Position numbers and translations under genes: made by a program. Positions 11,065 to 17,521 of a DNA stretch of 64,000 bases are shown in pieces. The stretch lies in NCBI GenBank assembly GCA_027487835.1, contig JAIYCU010000009.1:1-64000 (forward strand). The letters run 5' to 3'. Below the pieces are notes generated by a model that had not been told where the DNA came from, made no database searches, and saw nothing but the letters and a program-made list of their open reading frames with translations. The DNA comes from Bacteroidota bacterium. GTDB lineage: Bacteria; Bacteroidota; Bacteroidia; UKL13-3. Every line of letters starts with the position of its first letter. Positions within the stretch are counted from its first letter, which is position 1.

Positions 11065-12540
11065 ATGAAAAGGCTCAATTCGATTATCTTATTTACTCTT
11101 CTTACAATTTCATCTTTTGCCCAACACAGCGAAGAAGAAAAATATGTTCATGAAACAGATTCTTTGGCCCAGCTTCAAATTAAAGCTTGGCAAGGTTTAA
11201 AATTTGGTTTACTCATGCATTGGGGGCCTTATAGTCAATGGGGCATAGTGGAATCTTGGTCTATTTGTCCAGAAGAATATGGCTGGTGCGAGCGTAAAAT
11301 GGGTTCAAACCCCGGTAATTATTTCGCCTATAAAAAGGAATATGAAAACTTAGGAACTACTTTTAATCCTGTTCGGTTCAACCCAGAAAAATGGGCTTTG
11401 GCTGCTAAAAATGCAGGAATGCGATATGTGGTTTTTACCACCAAACATCATGATGGTTTCTCTATGTTTGATTCTAAACTCACCAACTATAAAATTACAG
11501 ATTCAAATTGTGCTTTTTCTAACCATCCTAAAAAGAATATTACCTTAGAAATATTTAATGCTTTTAGAAACCAAGGATTATGGACTGGCGCCTATTTTAG
11601 TAAACCGGATTGGCATCATCCAAACTATTGGGATACCATGTATCCACCCCGAGATAGAAATGTGAACTATGAACCAGAATCAAACCCAGATAAATGGAAT
11701 AAATATGTTGATTTTACCCAGGGGCAAATTTTTGAATTGTTAAGTGATTACGGCAAAGTAAATATCCTTTGGCTGGATGGAGGTTGGGTTTCAAAAAAAT
11801 CCAAATCAGAAATTGAAACTTGGTACGATGAACAATTTAAAGAAAGTAAAAATGGCTATGTTTTTCATAGAAGCATCAACCAGGATATTAGGATGGATGA
11901 ACTTGTTGCCAAGGCAAGGTTGCTGCAACCCGGACTAATTGTAGTGGATAGGGCGGTATATGGTAAAAATCAAAATTACCTTACGCCAGAAAATAGGGTT
12001 CCTGCTAAAGAGTTACCCTATCCATGGGAAAGCTGCATTATCTCTGGTGGCGGATGGGCGCATACCCCTGATGCAAAATATATGAGCGGTAGAGAAGGAA
12101 TTCATTTATTGGTTGATATCGTTTCTAAAGGAGGCAATTTATTATTAAATATTGCCCCAACTCCTCAAGGCGAATGGCAAGAAGGTGCTTATCAATTGCT
12201 CGAAGCCTATGGAGAATGGATGAAAATAAATGAAAGTGCTATTTATAATACACATACGTTAGCACCTTATAAGGAAAATCAAGTTTGCTTTACACAAGAT
12301 TCTCTTGGCAATACGTATTTTATTTATTTACAAGATAAAAATGAAACACAAATTCCAGCTCAAATCAACATAAGCTCGCATTGCCCTAAAGCAAATGCTA
12401 CACTCACGTTATTAGGTTCGAACCAAAACCTTAAATGGAAGAAGGAAGGCAAGGGTTGTGTGATTTATTTACCTAAAGAACTTCGTGCTCAAATGCCTTC
12501 AAAGTATGCATGGGTTTTTAAGGTTGAAGGAATTGAATGA
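11065..12540 (+). CDS. Alpha-L-fucosidase, GH29 (signal peptide)
   Basis: Secreted retaining alpha-L-fucosidase of 491 aa with a cleavable signal peptide (MKRLNSIILFTLLTISSFAQ). GH29 landmarks are FGLLMHWGPYSQWG (47-60), FTTKHHDGFSMFDS (124-137) and the nucleophile segment NILWLDGGW with Asp238. The usual (beta/alpha)8 domain extends to about residue 390, followed by a beta-sandwich end. The acid/base residue varies between GH29 subfamilies and I cannot assign it. It probably releases fucose from glycans in the periplasm or outside the cell, feeding the permease encoded next to it. It ends six bases before the convergent mutarotase gene. A TTG-N19-TATATTG element at 11019-11047 may be its promoter. 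Confidence 0.92.
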   Translation: MKRLNSIILFTLLTISSFAQHSEEEKYVHETDSLAQLQIKAWQGLKFGLLMHWGPYSQWGIVESWSICPEEYGWCERKMGSNPGNYFAYKKEYENLGTTFNPVRFNPEKWALAAKNAGMRYVVFTTKHHDGFSMFDSKLTNYKITDSNCAFSNHPKKNITLEIFNAFRNQGLWTGAYFSKPDWHHPNYWDTMYPPRDRNVNYEPESNPDKWNKYVDFTQGQIFELLSDYGKVNILWLDGGWVSKKSKSEIETWYDEQFKESKNGYVFHRSINQDIRMDELVAKARLLQPGLIVVDRAVYGKNQNYLTPENRVPAKELPYPWESCIISGGGWAHTPDAKYMSGREGIHLLVDIVSKGGNLLLNIAPTPQGEWQEGAYQLLEAYGEWMKINESAIYNTHTLAPYKENQVCFTQDSLGNTYFIYLQDKNETQIPAQINISSHCPKANATLTLLGSNQNLKWKKEGKGCVIYLPKELRAQMPSKYAWVFKVEGIE

Positions 12541-12546
12541 AAAGTA

Positions 12547-12876
12547 TTATAAGCTAAATATGCTCGACATGAGCATCCATTTTTCGCCATCTTTTGCCCC
12601 CGGTAGCGCCTGCTGATAGGTCCACATTAATTCTTCCCAAGCTTGTACTTTAGGGTTGTTTTGGTCTTGTAAGTTCTTTCGCTCAAAACTAAAATCATCG
12701 TTTGTTTCAAGTAACATTACCAAACGATTTTGCACTCGGTAAATATCACATTGAGTTATACCACTAGCTTTAATTTGCGCTAAGACTTCTGGCCAAACCG
12801 CTTTATGGTGGGCTTCATATGCTTCAATCAATTCTTGATTTGGTTTTAGGTCGAGTGCCAATACAAATTTTTTCAT
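12547..12876 (-). CDS. L-rhamnose mutarotase family protein (probable fucose mutarotase)
   Basis: 109-aa protein of the RhaM/YiiL fold (DUF718). The family pattern is clear: LDLKPNQELIEAYEAHHK, VWPEVLAQIKASGITQCDIY and a conserved Trp pair in EELMWTYQQALPGA. Family members interconvert alpha and beta anomers of 6-deoxy-hexoses. Its start overlaps the fucP stop codon (ATGA, 12873-12876), so it is translationally coupled to a fucose permease; L-fucose is therefore the likelier substrate than L-rhamnose, though this rests on context only. It is not related to FucU. Confidence 0.82.
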   Translation of the reverse strand: MKKFVLALDLKPNQELIEAYEAHHKAVWPEVLAQIKASGITQCDIYRVQNRLVMLLETNDDFSFERKNLQDQNNPKVQAWEELMWTYQQALPGAKDGEKWMLMSSIFSL

Positions 12877-14066
12877 GATAGCTTTTCTTTTAACAAATTA
12901 GTGGAAAACCATGCAATTACTCCAAAGCAAACAAGTGGAACCACAAACGCGTTTTGGATATTCGAAATATCTGAAATACTTCCCATCATTAATGGCAAAA
13001 TTGCACCACCCACTATTGTCATAATGAGCAACGGTGAACCAAACCTTGTATCAGCGCCCAAGCCATTTATGCCAGCAGAAAAAATACTTGGGAACATTAT
13101 CGACATAAAAAATTGAGTAGCCATCAAGGCATAAACAGTTAATGCGCCATGGCTAAGAATTACAAACACCAGTAGTAATATATTTACTAGGCTATAAATA
13201 AGCAATAGCTTTGCTGTGCTAATAAATTTAAGTAAAGCAGCGCCCAAAAACCTTCCAATCATAAAGAGAAAAAGGGCAACAGATAAATAGAGCGCTGCTT
13301 CTGCATTTTCCATTTGTAATTGCGCCACACAATAGCGAATAAAGAAACTACCAATTCCCACCTGTGCACCTACATAAAAGAATTGTGCAATTATCGCACG
13401 TTTAAGTTGAGGATAGGCGAGCAATCGTTTCAAAGAAAATCCTTCTTTATTAGAATTCTGGTTATCTGGTGCTTCTGGCAATGGAAGTTTAATAAAAACT
13501 AGCATCACTAAAAAAACCACGAGGCCAATAATTAGGTAAGGAATTCTTACGCTTAAAGCTGTACCACTGTTATCTGATAGTATAAACGTGCTGCCAAACA
13601 AAGCGGCAAGGGTGGCGCCTAATCCATTAAAAGCCTGCGCAAAGTTTAGTCGCTGCGATGCAGATTCCGGTGCACCCAAAATGCTAACATAAGGATTGGC
13701 AGCTGTTTCTAAAAAGGTTATGCCAGTGGCAATGATAAAAAGTGCAAATAGAAAAAGCGGATAAGAAACAAAGCTTGCAGCAGGGTAGAATAGAAATGCC
13801 CCTAAGGAGAAAAGGAATAATCCCATAACAATGGTTTTTTGATATCCTATCTTTTTAATTAAAAAACCTGCTGGCAAAGCCATAAAAAAGTACGCAAGGT
13901 AAAAGCTTGAATCTACCAGTGCAGATTGCATGTCGCTAAGCTTACAAGCATTTTTTAGATGTGGAATTAAGATAGGGTTGAGATTGTGTGCCAGAGCCCA
14001 AAGAAAGAACAAACTCATGATGGCCATTAAAGGCAAATGTGTATTTATTTGTGATTGTTTTACCAT
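12873..14066 (-). CDS. fucP: L-fucose:H+ symporter FucP family
   Basis: MFS permease of 397 aa with about 12 hydrophobic segments. It matches E. coli FucP through SLFFLWALAHNLNPILIPHL, the TM2 region FYLAYFFMALPAGFLIKK, FLETAANPYVSILG and RLNFAQAFNGLGA. Glu120 corresponds to the essential Glu135 of E. coli FucP, but the Asp46 position is Pro31 (NLNPILI in place of NLNDILL), see findings. It is the middle gene of a minus-strand operon, overlapping the upstream kinase fusion by seven bases and the downstream mutarotase by four. The hexose specificity is inferred from flanking fucosidases. Confidence 0.88.
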   Translation of the reverse strand: MVKQSQINTHLPLMAIMSLFFLWALAHNLNPILIPHLKNACKLSDMQSALVDSSFYLAYFFMALPAGFLIKKIGYQKTIVMGLFLFSLGAFLFYPAASFVSYPLFLFALFIIATGITFLETAANPYVSILGAPESASQRLNFAQAFNGLGATLAALFGSTFILSDNSGTALSVRIPYLIIGLVVFLVMLVFIKLPLPEAPDNQNSNKEGFSLKRLLAYPQLKRAIIAQFFYVGAQVGIGSFFIRYCVAQLQMENAEAALYLSVALFLFMIGRFLGAALLKFISTAKLLLIYSLVNILLLVFVILSHGALTVYALMATQFFMSIMFPSIFSAGINGLGADTRFGSPLLIMTIVGGAILPLMMGSISDISNIQNAFVVPLVCFGVIAWFSTNLLKEKLS

Positions 14067-15217
14067 AATGGCAATCTCCTTACTGTAATTTTTATTGCAT
14101 TTTCAATGGGTGTTTCGCTCAATAGAATGAGGTAACCACCCCCTCCAGCGCCGCTAATTTTATAGCCCAATACTTGGTTTTGATATAATTGAATTAATTG
14201 CAAAATAGAATCGTCAACCATGAGTGGAAACATTTTTATTTGAGCTTCAAACGAGTCACGCATGAATTTACCAATTGCCTTAAGGTCTTTTGCCAATAAA
14301 GCATTCCAGCAATCCTCGGCAGCCTTAGCAAGTAGTTGGGCATCGTCTTGGTTTAGGTTGGTTTGACCCAAAACATGATAGTTGTGTTTTCTCGACCCTA
14401 GCGGTAAAAAATACAAATGTTGCTCAAGCAATTGAAGAGTAGATTCGTCTTGTGAATTATCTATTTGCATTGGCCAATATTCTCCTTGATACATACTTTT
14501 GGTTAAGCCACTATAAACTATGCCAATGCTATCTTGCGAGCCTGCTATTTCTTTTGTTCCGGGTGGGTTTTCAAATGCAAAAAGTTGCTTGGCTGTCAAT
14601 TCATCATTGGGCCTTGGTATTTGGGTATGCCACAATTGAGTGGCACATTTTCTTGTGCTGGTTGCCATTCCACTGCGTGTGTCAAATGCTTGATTAGGTT
14701 CAATACAGAGCGTAATTACAGGCCCAGCTGCCAAATTGGATACAAAGGGTTGATCCAACCATCCGCCTGCTAAATCTATGCGGTAAGGAATTTGATTGAC
14801 CTCTCTTAAGGCTGTGGTAGACCGCACTGCCAATGAAGCAAAAGGAATTCTAGGAAGTACGATGTATTGGATGCCTTTTTGTTGGCATAAAGTTTCTTTA
14901 TCTGCTGAATGTCCATCATGGTTTACAATAAAAATATCTGGTTGTATGATATCCATTTCTGGCAAAAAATCTAAATAGCCACTGCCGCTGCTCACATATA
15001 CTTTGTAAACACAAGAAAGGGCTTCAAGCAAATATTTTCTTTCTGCCTCGGGGTTAATGGTTTTTCGTTTTTTTAAATTCAGAACGGTTTGGTCCGAGCC
15101 AAGGCAAACGTGCAGTTTTCCATAGCCTGCAGCACTTTTTAAGAAGGCTACATGCCCGCTGTGCAATAGGTCGAAACAACCACTCACCATTACTTTTTTA
15201 TTTGAGTTATCTGTCAT
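14060..15217 (-). CDS. Nucleotidyltransferase - GHMP kinase fusion (candidate fucose-activating enzyme)
   Basis: 385 aa with two parts. Residues 1-135 are a cytidylyltransferase-like domain: VSGCFDLLHSGHVAFLKSA with HxGH at 19-22, and RSTTALRE (132-139) in the place of the usual ISSTxIR. Residues 141-385 are a GHMP kinase: RIDLAGGWLDQP (146-157), the phosphate-loop equivalent SGMATSTRKCA (182-192), GSQDSIGIVYSGL (226-238) and the C-terminal KISGAGGGGY (353-361). The RIDxAGGWxDxP form is closest to fucokinase and heptose kinases. First gene of the fucP operon and divergent from a fucosidase, it may phosphorylate fucose and activate it to a nucleotide sugar. The specificity is inferred; a heptose or other deoxysugar is possible. 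Confidence 0.7.
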   Translation of the reverse strand: MTDNSNKKVMVSGCFDLLHSGHVAFLKSAAGYGKLHVCLGSDQTVLNLKKRKTINPEAERKYLLEALSCVYKVYVSSGSGYLDFLPEMDIIQPDIFIVNHDGHSADKETLCQQKGIQYIVLPRIPFASLAVRSTTALREVNQIPYRIDLAGGWLDQPFVSNLAAGPVITLCIEPNQAFDTRSGMATSTRKCATQLWHTQIPRPNDELTAKQLFAFENPPGTKEIAGSQDSIGIVYSGLTKSMYQGEYWPMQIDNSQDESTLQLLEQHLYFLPLGSRKHNYHVLGQTNLNQDDAQLLAKAAEDCWNALLAKDLKAIGKFMRDSFEAQIKMFPLMVDDSILQLIQLYQNQVLGYKISGAGGGGYLILLSETPIENAIKITVRRLPLW

Positions 15218-15270: not shown

Positions 15271-16575
15271 ATGCGCATACTTTGTTTACTATTTTTATTC
15301 ATTTGGTTCAAACCGAACCTTGCCCAAACAGATAGCACCAAGATGCAATGGTTTAAGGATGCCAAATTAGGGATATTTATTCATTGGGGAATTTATGCTG
15401 TAGAAGGCACTACAGAGTCGTGGGCATTTTATAATAAGCAAGTTCCATATGATAACTATATGCGCCAAATAAAAGGGTTTAAAGCTGAAAATTATCAAGC
15501 TGCCGAGTGGGCGAAATTGATTAAGGAAAGCGGTGCAAAATATTGTGTTATAACTGCCAAACACCATGATGGAGTGGCCTTGTACGACACTAAAATGAAT
15601 GGGTTGAGTATTCCTAAAAAATCGCCTTCAAAAAGAGATGTTTTAAGTCCGTTTGTGCAAGCTTTAAAAAATGAACAATTAAAAGTGGGTATTTACTATT
15701 CTTTGATAGATTGGTCGCATCCAGATTATCCTGGTTTTACAAAAGATTCTAGTAGGTATATTATTTCAAATGAACCCTTGCGGTGGCAAAAATTTACAAA
15801 GTTTCTTCACGGTCAGATTCAAGAATTAAGTGTGGCTTATCAGCCAGATTTATGGTGGTTTGATGGGGATTGGGAGCATAGTGCCCAAGAGTGGCAGGCC
15901 AAAGAAATTAGGGAGGGGATTTTAAAAGCCAAACCTAGTGCCATTATCAATGGACGTTTGCAGGGCTATGGAGATTACGCCACACCAGAGCAAAATTTCC
16001 CAGTGAGCAAACCTACTGAAGAGGCTTGGGAATTATGCATGACCATTAACGACAATTGGGGCTACCGTTCAATTGATACCAATTATAAAACTGCCTATGA
16101 GTTGATTAGTATTTTTTCTGATTGTATTGGCTTTGGCGGAAACTTATTATTGGATATTGCGCCCAAGGCAGATGGAACTTTTCCAGACACGCAAAAGTTT
16201 TTAATTAAGGAATTGGGTAAATGGACTCATAAACATGCAGAAGCTGTTTATGCAACCACTGCTGGTTTGCCACAAGGGCACTATTATGGTGCCAGTACCT
16301 TATCTAAAGACTCTATGAGTTTGTACTTATTTGTGAATAATAGCCATGCAAAAAGCGTTTATGTAAAGGGCTTGAAAAATAAAATTGTAAAGGCAGAAAT
16401 TGTAGGAACAACAGAAGAAATTAAACCTAAAATAGTAGGTAAGATTTATTGGAGTTCAGTACCTGGATTAGTGTATTTAGATATTCCTCAAACTGCCCAA
16501 GATGAATACATTACAGTAGTGAAACTAAGTTTAGATAAACCCTTACAGTTGTATAGTGGCAAAGGTGGGTTGTAA
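15271..16575 (+). CDS. Alpha-L-fucosidase, GH29 (second copy)
   Basis: 434-aa GH29 enzyme with a short signal peptide ending about LAQ (17-19). Landmarks are LGIFIHWGIYAVEGTTESW (33-51), CVITAKHHDGVALYDTK (92-108) and the nucleophile segment DLWWFDGDWEH with Asp198. It is 57 residues shorter than the other fucosidase and clearly different in sequence, so the two probably act on different linkages rather than being a recent duplication. It is transcribed divergently from the kinase-fucP-mutarotase operon across 53 bases. The signal-peptide coding stretch contains a GGTTCAAACC palindrome (15305-15314). Confidence 0.92.
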   Translation: MRILCLLFLFIWFKPNLAQTDSTKMQWFKDAKLGIFIHWGIYAVEGTTESWAFYNKQVPYDNYMRQIKGFKAENYQAAEWAKLIKESGAKYCVITAKHHDGVALYDTKMNGLSIPKKSPSKRDVLSPFVQALKNEQLKVGIYYSLIDWSHPDYPGFTKDSSRYIISNEPLRWQKFTKFLHGQIQELSVAYQPDLWWFDGDWEHSAQEWQAKEIREGILKAKPSAIINGRLQGYGDYATPEQNFPVSKPTEEAWELCMTINDNWGYRSIDTNYKTAYELISIFSDCIGFGGNLLLDIAPKADGTFPDTQKFLIKELGKWTHKHAEAVYATTAGLPQGHYYGASTLSKDSMSLYLFVNNSHAKSVYVKGLKNKIVKAEIVGTTEEIKPKIVGKIYWSSVPGLVYLDIPQTAQDEYITVVKLSLDKPLQLYSGKGGL

Positions 16576-16585
16576 TAAGATGGAA

Positions 16586-17521
16586 TTAATTTTGGACTTG
16601 AATATATTGCTCAGTTACAAATTTAAAATAATCAATATCTACTTCGCTTAAATAGTGATGGCAGGGGATAAAAAATGCATCTTCACCATAGAAAACACTG
16701 TTTTGAATACCTTGAGCGTACAAGTAGTTTTTAAAACTTGGTAAATCTTTAATGATTTGGTTGTTGTTTAATAATAGAAGAGAAGGAACAATTCCAGCTT
16801 CACTTGGAAACCTTAGGCTAAAGCCCAATGATTCAAACTTCGCACTTGCATATTGGTGCAACTCACTTCTTTTCCGAAGGATATTGTTTACTTCTCTTAG
16901 TTCAAAACCAACTACCTTTAAAATGTAGTTTATTTCATCCTTATTTAGCGATACTTTGTTTAGTAGGTTTCGGTTTGAACCTACACCTTTGCCAACTAGC
17001 AATCCGCCAATTTGAATGCTAAAAAACTTAGGAAAGCTAAATAAACTGTAATTGCCATATAAGCCAATTTTTTTAGTTTCATTTTGGCTAAAAAATGTGG
17101 TGCAGCAATCTTCAATTACTGGTAAGCCTGTGTTCACCAATCCTACCATATCTTTATACAAATATCCGAACTCATGATTGACAAAATAGGCTGCAGTTTG
17201 CTCGCTTACTTTACGATCCCAGTTGCAGTATTTGGATAGGGAAGAGGTAACGCAGCCGCTGATGTAAAGGTTATGAGAAGGGGTTAGAATACTGATATTT
17301 TGGGCATATTCTAGATTAAGTTCTTCCATTGCAAAGTCAATGGCTTCTCTGCCGTTTTTGGTGATTATCCAATTGTTTTCTCCAAATCGTTCATTAAAAT
17401 ATTGTTGAGCATATTCTGCCCAAACCTCATCAATTTTGGCATTGCGGGCAATTGATGCAGTAACAAAAGCACCAATGCGATAAGTGGGCATTAAAAATGG
17501 ATCTGGGCTTATAACGTACAT
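16586..17521 (-). CDS. DegT/DnrJ/EryC1-like PLP-dependent enzyme
   Basis: 311 aa, short for the family (usually ~370). Fold type I PLP features are visible: the N-terminal half with WIITKNGREAIDFAME, LPVIEDCCTTF where Asp138 would pair with the pyridine nitrogen, and SLFSFPKFFSIQIGGLLVG with the likely Schiff-base Lys165. Sugar aminotransferases of this family install amino groups on nucleotide hexoses. The usual long substrate loop after the Lys is reduced, so the substrate may be unusual, or the protein may be a divergent relative. It ends ten bases from the convergent fucosidase; there is no operon partner. Confidence 0.68.
   Translation of the reverse strand: MYVISPDPFLMPTYRIGAFVTASIARNAKIDEVWAEYAQQYFNERFGENNWIITKNGREAIDFAMEELNLEYAQNISILTPSHNLYISGCVTSSLSKYCNWDRKVSEQTAAYFVNHEFGYLYKDMVGLVNTGLPVIEDCCTTFFSQNETKKIGLYGNYSLFSFPKFFSIQIGGLLVGKGVGSNRNLLNKVSLNKDEINYILKVVGFELREVNNILRKRSELHQYASAKFESLGFSLRFPSEAGIVPSLLLLNNNQIIKDLPSFKNYLYAQGIQNSVFYGEDAFFIPCHHYLSEVDIDYFKFVTEQYIQVQN

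Follow-up and report, generated by a model that had tools for sequence, protein, structure and literature searches.

Gene organization of the fucose locus

The minus-strand reading frame running from 15217 to 14060 encodes a fusion protein of 385 aa (P0001), in which a nucleotidyltransferase is joined to a kinase; the ORF and its translation were checked, and the plus-strand frame over the same bases (14060..15217) is riddled with stops. Within the window, i.e. the whole stretch of 64,000 nucleotides that was analysed, the fusion gene is the first of a three-gene operon that continues with a FucP permease and a RhaM-family mutarotase, and that is flanked by two GH29 genes (Table 1). The fusion gene and fucP share 7 bases, and fucP in turn shares 4 with the mutarotase gene, while the GH29 gene at 15271..16575 is divergent from the fusion gene, the gap being 53 bases. 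The original prediction had placed the gene in a fucose setting, and this is borne out by a FucP match above its cut-off, by the RhaM match to the mutarotase and by the two GH29 genes. Against the NCBIfam rhamnose mutarotase model, the mutarotase of the window scored below the cut-off. A short DegT/aminotransferase-like protein (311 aa; 16586-17521 in the window) gave only a partial match to PF01041.

Table 1. Genes, domains and motifs at the fusion locus, with their window coordinates and the basis of each assignment.
Feature	Position	Strand	Basis
Nucleotidyltransferase-kinase fusion, 385 aa	14060..15217	-	ORF, domain matches, 84-row alignment, AlphaFold2 model
FucP L-fucose:H+ symporter	12873..14066	-	TIGR00885 338.3 bits, cut-off 280.4 (NCBIfam)
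RhaM-family mutarotase	12547..12876	-	PF05336 97.7 bits
GH29 alpha-L-fucosidase	15271..16575	+	PF01120 286.7 bits
Second GH29 alpha-L-fucosidase	11065..12540	+	PF01120 282.9 bits, Fucosidase_C 34.5 bits
HxGH nucleotidyltransferase domain, residues 1-138	14804..15217	-	PF01467; fold match to GCT
HSGH motif, residues 19-22	15152..15163	-	Family alignment
RSTT motif, residues 132-135	14813..14824	-	Family alignment
Compact GHMP kinase domain, residues 139-385 (247 aa)	14063..14803	-	Fold matches; PF08544
RIDLAGGWLD, residues 146-155	14753..14782	-	Counterparts of FKP R592, W599, D601; 84/84 rows
RSGMATSTR, residues 181-189, phosphate loop and flanking arginines	14651..14677	-	Occupies the place of FKP 712-720
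GSQD, residues 226-229	14531..14542	-	Counterparts of FKP Q761, D762 (general base); 84/84 rows
SGAGGGG, residues 355-361, GHMP motif 3	14135..14155	-	Alignments

The nucleotidyltransferase domain

The N-terminal domain belongs to the HxGH nucleotidyltransferases (CTP_transf_like), as is evident from its PF01467 match (41.6 bits, cut-off 21), its HxGH and STT motifs, and its fold. In the 84-row family alignment, on which all row counts are based, H19 and H22 are kept in each of the 83 rows that cover them. The RSTT motif, which we take to be the counterpart of ISTT, is almost as constant (R132 in 83, S133 in 82, T134 in 80 and T135 in 82 of the 83 covered rows). Superposed on the TagD/GCT glycerol-3-phosphate cytidylyltransferase of B. 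subtilis (VIA-align), the modelled domain gave a Z of 17.2 over 125 of 126 chain residues (rmsd 2.0). GCT has the same fold but a different substrate, and is a free-standing enzyme; its motif RTEGISTT is not present as such in the fusion domain.

The top NCBIfam match of the domain is the model for heptose 1-phosphate adenylyltransferase, pointing to an ATP enzyme, and the PDB profile matches are a mixture of CTP enzymes and LPS-core proteins. HldE and HldC resemble the fusion in having an HxGH nucleotidyltransferase of the same fold that acts on a sugar 1-phosphate, and HldE is a kinase fusion as well. In HldE, however, the kinase, which is of the ribokinase type, lies N-terminal to the transferase, and the fusion scores far below the model cut-offs: HldE/RfaE domain II (TIGR02199) reached 56.2 bits against a cut-off of 181.5, the match spanning profile positions 339-409 of 475.

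The kinase domain and its sugar site

The C-terminal domain is predicted to have the two-lobed GHMP kinase fold. An AlphaFold2 model based on the 84-row alignment has a pLDDT of 89.0 and a pTM of 0.66, the latter value making it unsure how the domains are placed with respect to each other; mean pLDDT is 55 in the linker block (131-140) and 77-79 in the phosphate-loop blocks. A single-sequence structure prediction (pLDDT 31.5) was discarded. At the level of Pfam domains, the match to GHMP_kinases_C (PF08544) is marginal, at 21.6 bits with a cut-off of 21. No GHMP_kinases_N (PF00288) match was obtained for P0001 at E values up to 1, nor for five other relatives at E up to 10, and all three E. 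coli GHMP controls matched strongly.

Structural comparison with FKP and HddA, which had been put forward with the original prediction, was carried out with VIA-align. The best fold score was that to the heptokinase WcbL (Z 22.9; residues 139-382, 239 residues aligned, rmsd 2.9), above the FKP fucokinase (Z 21.1; 237 or 229 residues, rmsd 2.9) and HddA (Z 18.7). The HddA and WcbL heptokinases share the GHMP kinase fold, but their chains have 306-345 residues, compared with 247 here, and lack a fused transferase; the score against the NCBIfam HddA model (NF049969) was 19.3 bits, the cut-off being 600. By sequence profile, the best PDB relative is the FKP kinase (2.1e-14), followed at a distance by heptokinase 3k85 (1.8e-6), which reads AGGGSD at the site of AGGWLD and so has G at the W153 position. 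This profile ranking, and the retention of the fucose residues, uphold the earlier view that the kinase is nearest to fucokinase.

Residues 146-157 of the fusion protein read RIDLAGGWLDQP. Within this stretch R146, W153 and D155 align with R592, W599 and D601 of FKP, and further along Q228 and D229 correspond to FKP Q761 and D762, by motif and by the spacing from phosphate loop to base aspartate (46 here, 47 in FKP). All five are invariant (84/84 rows), as are R181, S187 and R189; for the first motif (R146, W153, D155) this conservation is partly by choice, because rows were found with the pattern D[LI]AGGWLD. The position of FKP T602 is occupied by Q156 in all 84 rows. According to crystal work on FKP, its fucose-binding and catalytic residues include R592, W599, D601, Q761 and D762, and the W599A and D601A changes cause a loss of more than 3000-fold (PMC11982464).

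Comparison with FKP and the missing adenine segment

The bifunctional FKP of Bacteroides fragilis (949 aa) has the same order of functions, nucleotidyltransferase N-terminal and GHMP fucokinase C-terminal, and its kinase has the fucose-binding residues in common with the fusion. In contrast, the N-terminal half of FKP has the fold of a sugar-nucleotide pyrophosphorylase, together with a beta-helix, where the fusion has an HxGH domain of about 138 aa, and the FKP kinase carries an adenine pocket segment that is missing from the fusion, which has only 385 aa in all. Fucose_pyrophosphorylase (PF07959) is absent from P0001, which has PF01467 instead, and the NCBIfam FKP model (NF009948) scored 46.5 bits with a cut-off of 721. 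Because a search for the pyrophosphorylase domain was negative, the fusion is not counted as an FKP; the difference in nucleotidyltransferase fold had been correctly foreseen. It may still function like FKP.

The loss of the adenine-pocket segment is a point that the original prediction missed. Measured from the arginine of motif 1, the phosphate loop begins its glycines at a spacing of 37 residues in 84 of 84 members, against 123 in FKP (5 of 5), 97 in E. coli GalK, 85 in ThrB and 93 in IspE, the last two counted from a residue near the place of the arginine that was chosen by eye. The spacing from the base aspartate to motif 3 is 127-129 in the fusion and 137 in FKP. With the main difference confined to one interval, the shrinkage is for the most part a single clean loss, amounting to about 86 residues when FKP is taken as the reference. 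The adenine of FKP has been modelled on D644, M645, P666, I669 and L722, by the authors of its structure (PMC11982464), and the first four of these five modelled contacts are within the lost stretch. The phosphate loop of FKP reads GSGLGTSSI or GSGMGTSSI; that of the fusion is flanked by R181 and R189 instead. With the pocket segment gone, ATP-driven kinase activity is not to be taken for granted, and the phosphoryl donor is uncertain.

One possibility, which we consider unlikely, is that the donor for the GHMP domain is not ATP but pyrophosphate or some other small polyphosphate, with PPi being recycled from the protein's own nucleotidyltransferase domain. The deletion falls precisely between the sugar strand and the phosphate loop and removes the four modelled adenine contacts, and the sugar site, the Mg serine and the base are all retained; in addition, the two invariant arginines around the loop recur in a diverged stand-alone kinase (P0003, see below), and the fused partner is a domain of a PPi-releasing type. 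On the other hand, no PPi-dependent GHMP kinase was found in the open-licence literature, phage kinases without a fused domain exist, and the adenine might be held by new residues, by another subunit or by the partner domain; N217-P-P-G and W248-P249, invariant in this family only, could bind it. A rebuilt ATP site, or loose binding of ATP by its phosphates only, is at least as likely as a PPi donor. It is rather doubtful that this is a GHMP kinase working without ATP, in which PPi from the protein's own domain phosphorylates fucose, and one NTP with catalytic PPi would both phosphorylate and activate the sugar, perhaps to an NDP-fucose other than the GDP form.

Distribution of the family and its gene neighbourhoods

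Rather than being a peculiarity of this genome, the fusion is one member of a large family. A scan of genome contigs with the patterns D[LI]AGGWLD and LF[AS][FY][ED]NPPG found at least 517 relatives. The best 80 of these are near full length, all with an identity of at least 54%, and according to their record titles come from Bacteroidota, Chloroflexota, Ignavibacteriae, Calditrichaeota and Armatimonadetes. Closer to the window, eight further copies (57-91% identity) occur among 64 genomes of its family, the gene being present in 9 of the 64; within its class it is patchy (5 of 247 genomes). These copies and relatives, together with the two Pfam matches, establish the pairing of HxGH nucleotidyltransferase and GHMP kinase that had been claimed.

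Among the best 80 loci, neighbours include fucP (22), GH29 (15) and rhaM (11) and, by clustering, fucI (7), FGGY kinases (6) and class II aldolases (5). At least one of fucP, GH29, rhaM and fucI is found in 31 of the 80 and at least two in 19, leaving 49 with none in the stretch of DNA covered, some of them on short contigs. Where there is a downstream gene (77 loci), this is fucP on the same strand in 21 cases. When mapped on a quick tree (22 rows with fucP, window included, and 58 without), the fucP label required 11 changes compared with 19.5 in shuffles, and starred branches force at least 9, so that the pairing of fusion and fucP does not go back to one single inheritance.

In two loci, genes for gmd (over cut-off) and an fcl-like protein follow downstream, directly after the fusion gene in L077 and in the order rhaM, fusion, fucP, gmd, fcl in L062. 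Such neighbours are compatible with GDP-fucose as the product. Catabolic settings also exist, as FucI is over its cut-off in L030 and L054. A cluster of the NAD-dependent sugar dehydratase/epimerase type lies near the fusion in 11 of the best 80 loci and follows it immediately in 5 of 77. An NAD-dependent sugar epimerase-type gene stands right behind the fusion in L054 (9140-10189); its family assignment is weak, and its protein might act on the product of the fusion enzyme. For neighbours in Anaerolineae, a by-eye reading as GDP-mannose 3,5-epimerase was rejected, the scan being weak and mixed (best GDPFucSynFcl, 102 of 500 bits).

Two loci of Chloroflexota type (L073:5147-6837 and L086:11693-12475) contain a diverged stand-alone compact kinase a few genes away from the fusion. 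That of L086, from Anaerolineae (P0003), has about 260 aa, a similarly short spacing and both flanking arginines, and a similar protein occurs in L073. There, the stand-alone kinase is followed by a protein of 305 aa that contains two nucleotidyltransferase domains; the HxGH of the first one is broken.

Fucose metabolism in the host genome

The host genome, with a completeness of 99.92%, contains neither FucI nor any aldolase of class II, the class to which fucA belongs, and this closes the isomerase-kinase-aldolase route in the host. The absence of fucI that had been noted for the window thus extends to the whole genome. FKP pyrophosphorylase is likewise absent from the host genome (PF07959, no match). 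The genome does encode gmd over its cut-off, an adjoining fcl-like gene (466.7 bits, below the cut-off of 500) and, on the same contig as these two, a GT10 fucosyltransferase; the presence of gmd is uninformative, as it is nearly universal (over cut-off in 56 of 62 genomes). FucI is over cut-off in 3 of the 247 genomes of the class. None of 12 fusion-bearing genomes has FKP, which says little given a base rate of 5 in 247 genomes over cut-off. An oxidative fucose route is a remote possibility, in view of two MR_MLE proteins that score over cut-off. The gene content of the host fits fucose salvage for glycans. The contention that the enzyme serves salvage, not catabolism, is well supported by what this host has and lacks; some other members lie beside fucI, FGGY and aldolase genes, in what looks like a catabolic setting.

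Proposed role and alternatives

The fusion is probably a fucose salvage enzyme, turning scavenged L-fucose into an NDP-fucose for fucosylation. The GH29 fucosidases would release L-fucose, FucP would bring it into the cell and the mutarotase would accelerate the exchange of anomers. The GHMP domain would then phosphorylate O1 of fucose, with D229 as the base, W153 stacked on the sugar and S187 with Mg2+, and the HxGH domain would couple the fucose 1-phosphate to NMP with release of PPi. The resulting NDP-fucose would be spent on fucosylation and not burnt. Substrate, both reactions and their direction are what we infer for the fusion enzyme; the sugar side of the scheme, with fucose as the likely substrate, is well supported.

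That the true sugar is instead a look-alike taken by FucP and FKP-like kinases (D-arabinose, L-galactose), or a heptose, is quite unlikely. FKP is relaxed at C5 (PMC11982464) and its relative TxFKP has been assayed with L-fucose and D-arabinose (PMC12732313). The highest fold Z is that to WcbL and the N-domain is matched best in NCBIfam by a heptose 1-phosphate adenylyltransferase model, but the GH29 and FucP neighbours, W153 in place of the heptokinase glycine and, at L062 and L077, the nearby genes for gmd and an fcl-like protein argue for fucose. Improbable, too, is a catabolic or regulatory role, in which the product would act as an effector or belong to a side branch of the breakdown of fucose. 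The fucI, FGGY and class II aldolase neighbours of a few of the best 80 loci would agree with it, but the host lacks FucI and class II aldolases, and, to our knowledge, known fucose breakdown routes have no place for a nucleotidyl transfer step. Finally, it is very improbable that the kinase half is dead and serves only to guide the nucleotidyltransferase by holding fucose or fucose 1-phosphate, since in spite of the missing PF00288 match in P0001 and five relatives (3/3 E. coli controls having it), D229, S187, R146 and SGAGGGG are retained across the family, and some phage contigs carry the kinase by itself.

In our preferred reading the folds are of known types, and the general task, salvage of fucose by an enzyme with two domains, is likewise a known one. 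The pairing of HxGH and GHMP domains with a shortened kinase was not found in print among open-licence papers, and the same literature yielded no paper on CDP-fucose or ADP-fucose, including the CDP-L- and ADP-L- forms. A 2025 survey favours the descent of all known FKPs from a single ancestral fusion, names GDP-fucose as the donor used by every known fucosyltransferase, and describes the GDP form of activated fucose as prohibitively expensive (PMC12732313); its main text has no mention of cytidyl, adenylyl, nucleotidyl, domain architecture, Chloroflex or CTP. A second, widespread fusion that draws its transferase from another superfamily and whose kinase lacks the usual adenine segment would mean that fucose activation had been solved independently. 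It might bring to light a further nucleotide form of fucose, and would serve as a test of whether GHMP kinases can dispense with their adenine site. Being a single chain of 385 aa, the enzyme could also be of practical use in the production of activated fucose.

Copies in phage contigs

The fusion had no match in a plasmid collection. In annotated phages, 27 records were matched, the best-listed places being all in the N-domain and none covering more than 80% of the query, and the stand-alone phage kinase had no match there. Two phage contigs carry the full fusion within the head gene module: in L097 (1792-2925) it lies between terminase and portal, and in L095 (7986-9128) it follows the capsid gene, adjoining a sulfotransferase and a methyltransferase-like protein. 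The phage copy L098:7998-9017 (339 aa) ends its frame early, with no GHMP_kinases_C reported, and is truncated or frameshifted. The compact kinase alone (about 243 aa) occurs in the phage contigs L014:5001-5732 (the same contig as L100), where it is accompanied by a methyltransferase gene, and L099:7998-8723, among replication-type genes such as those for a DnaB-like helicase and ThyX.
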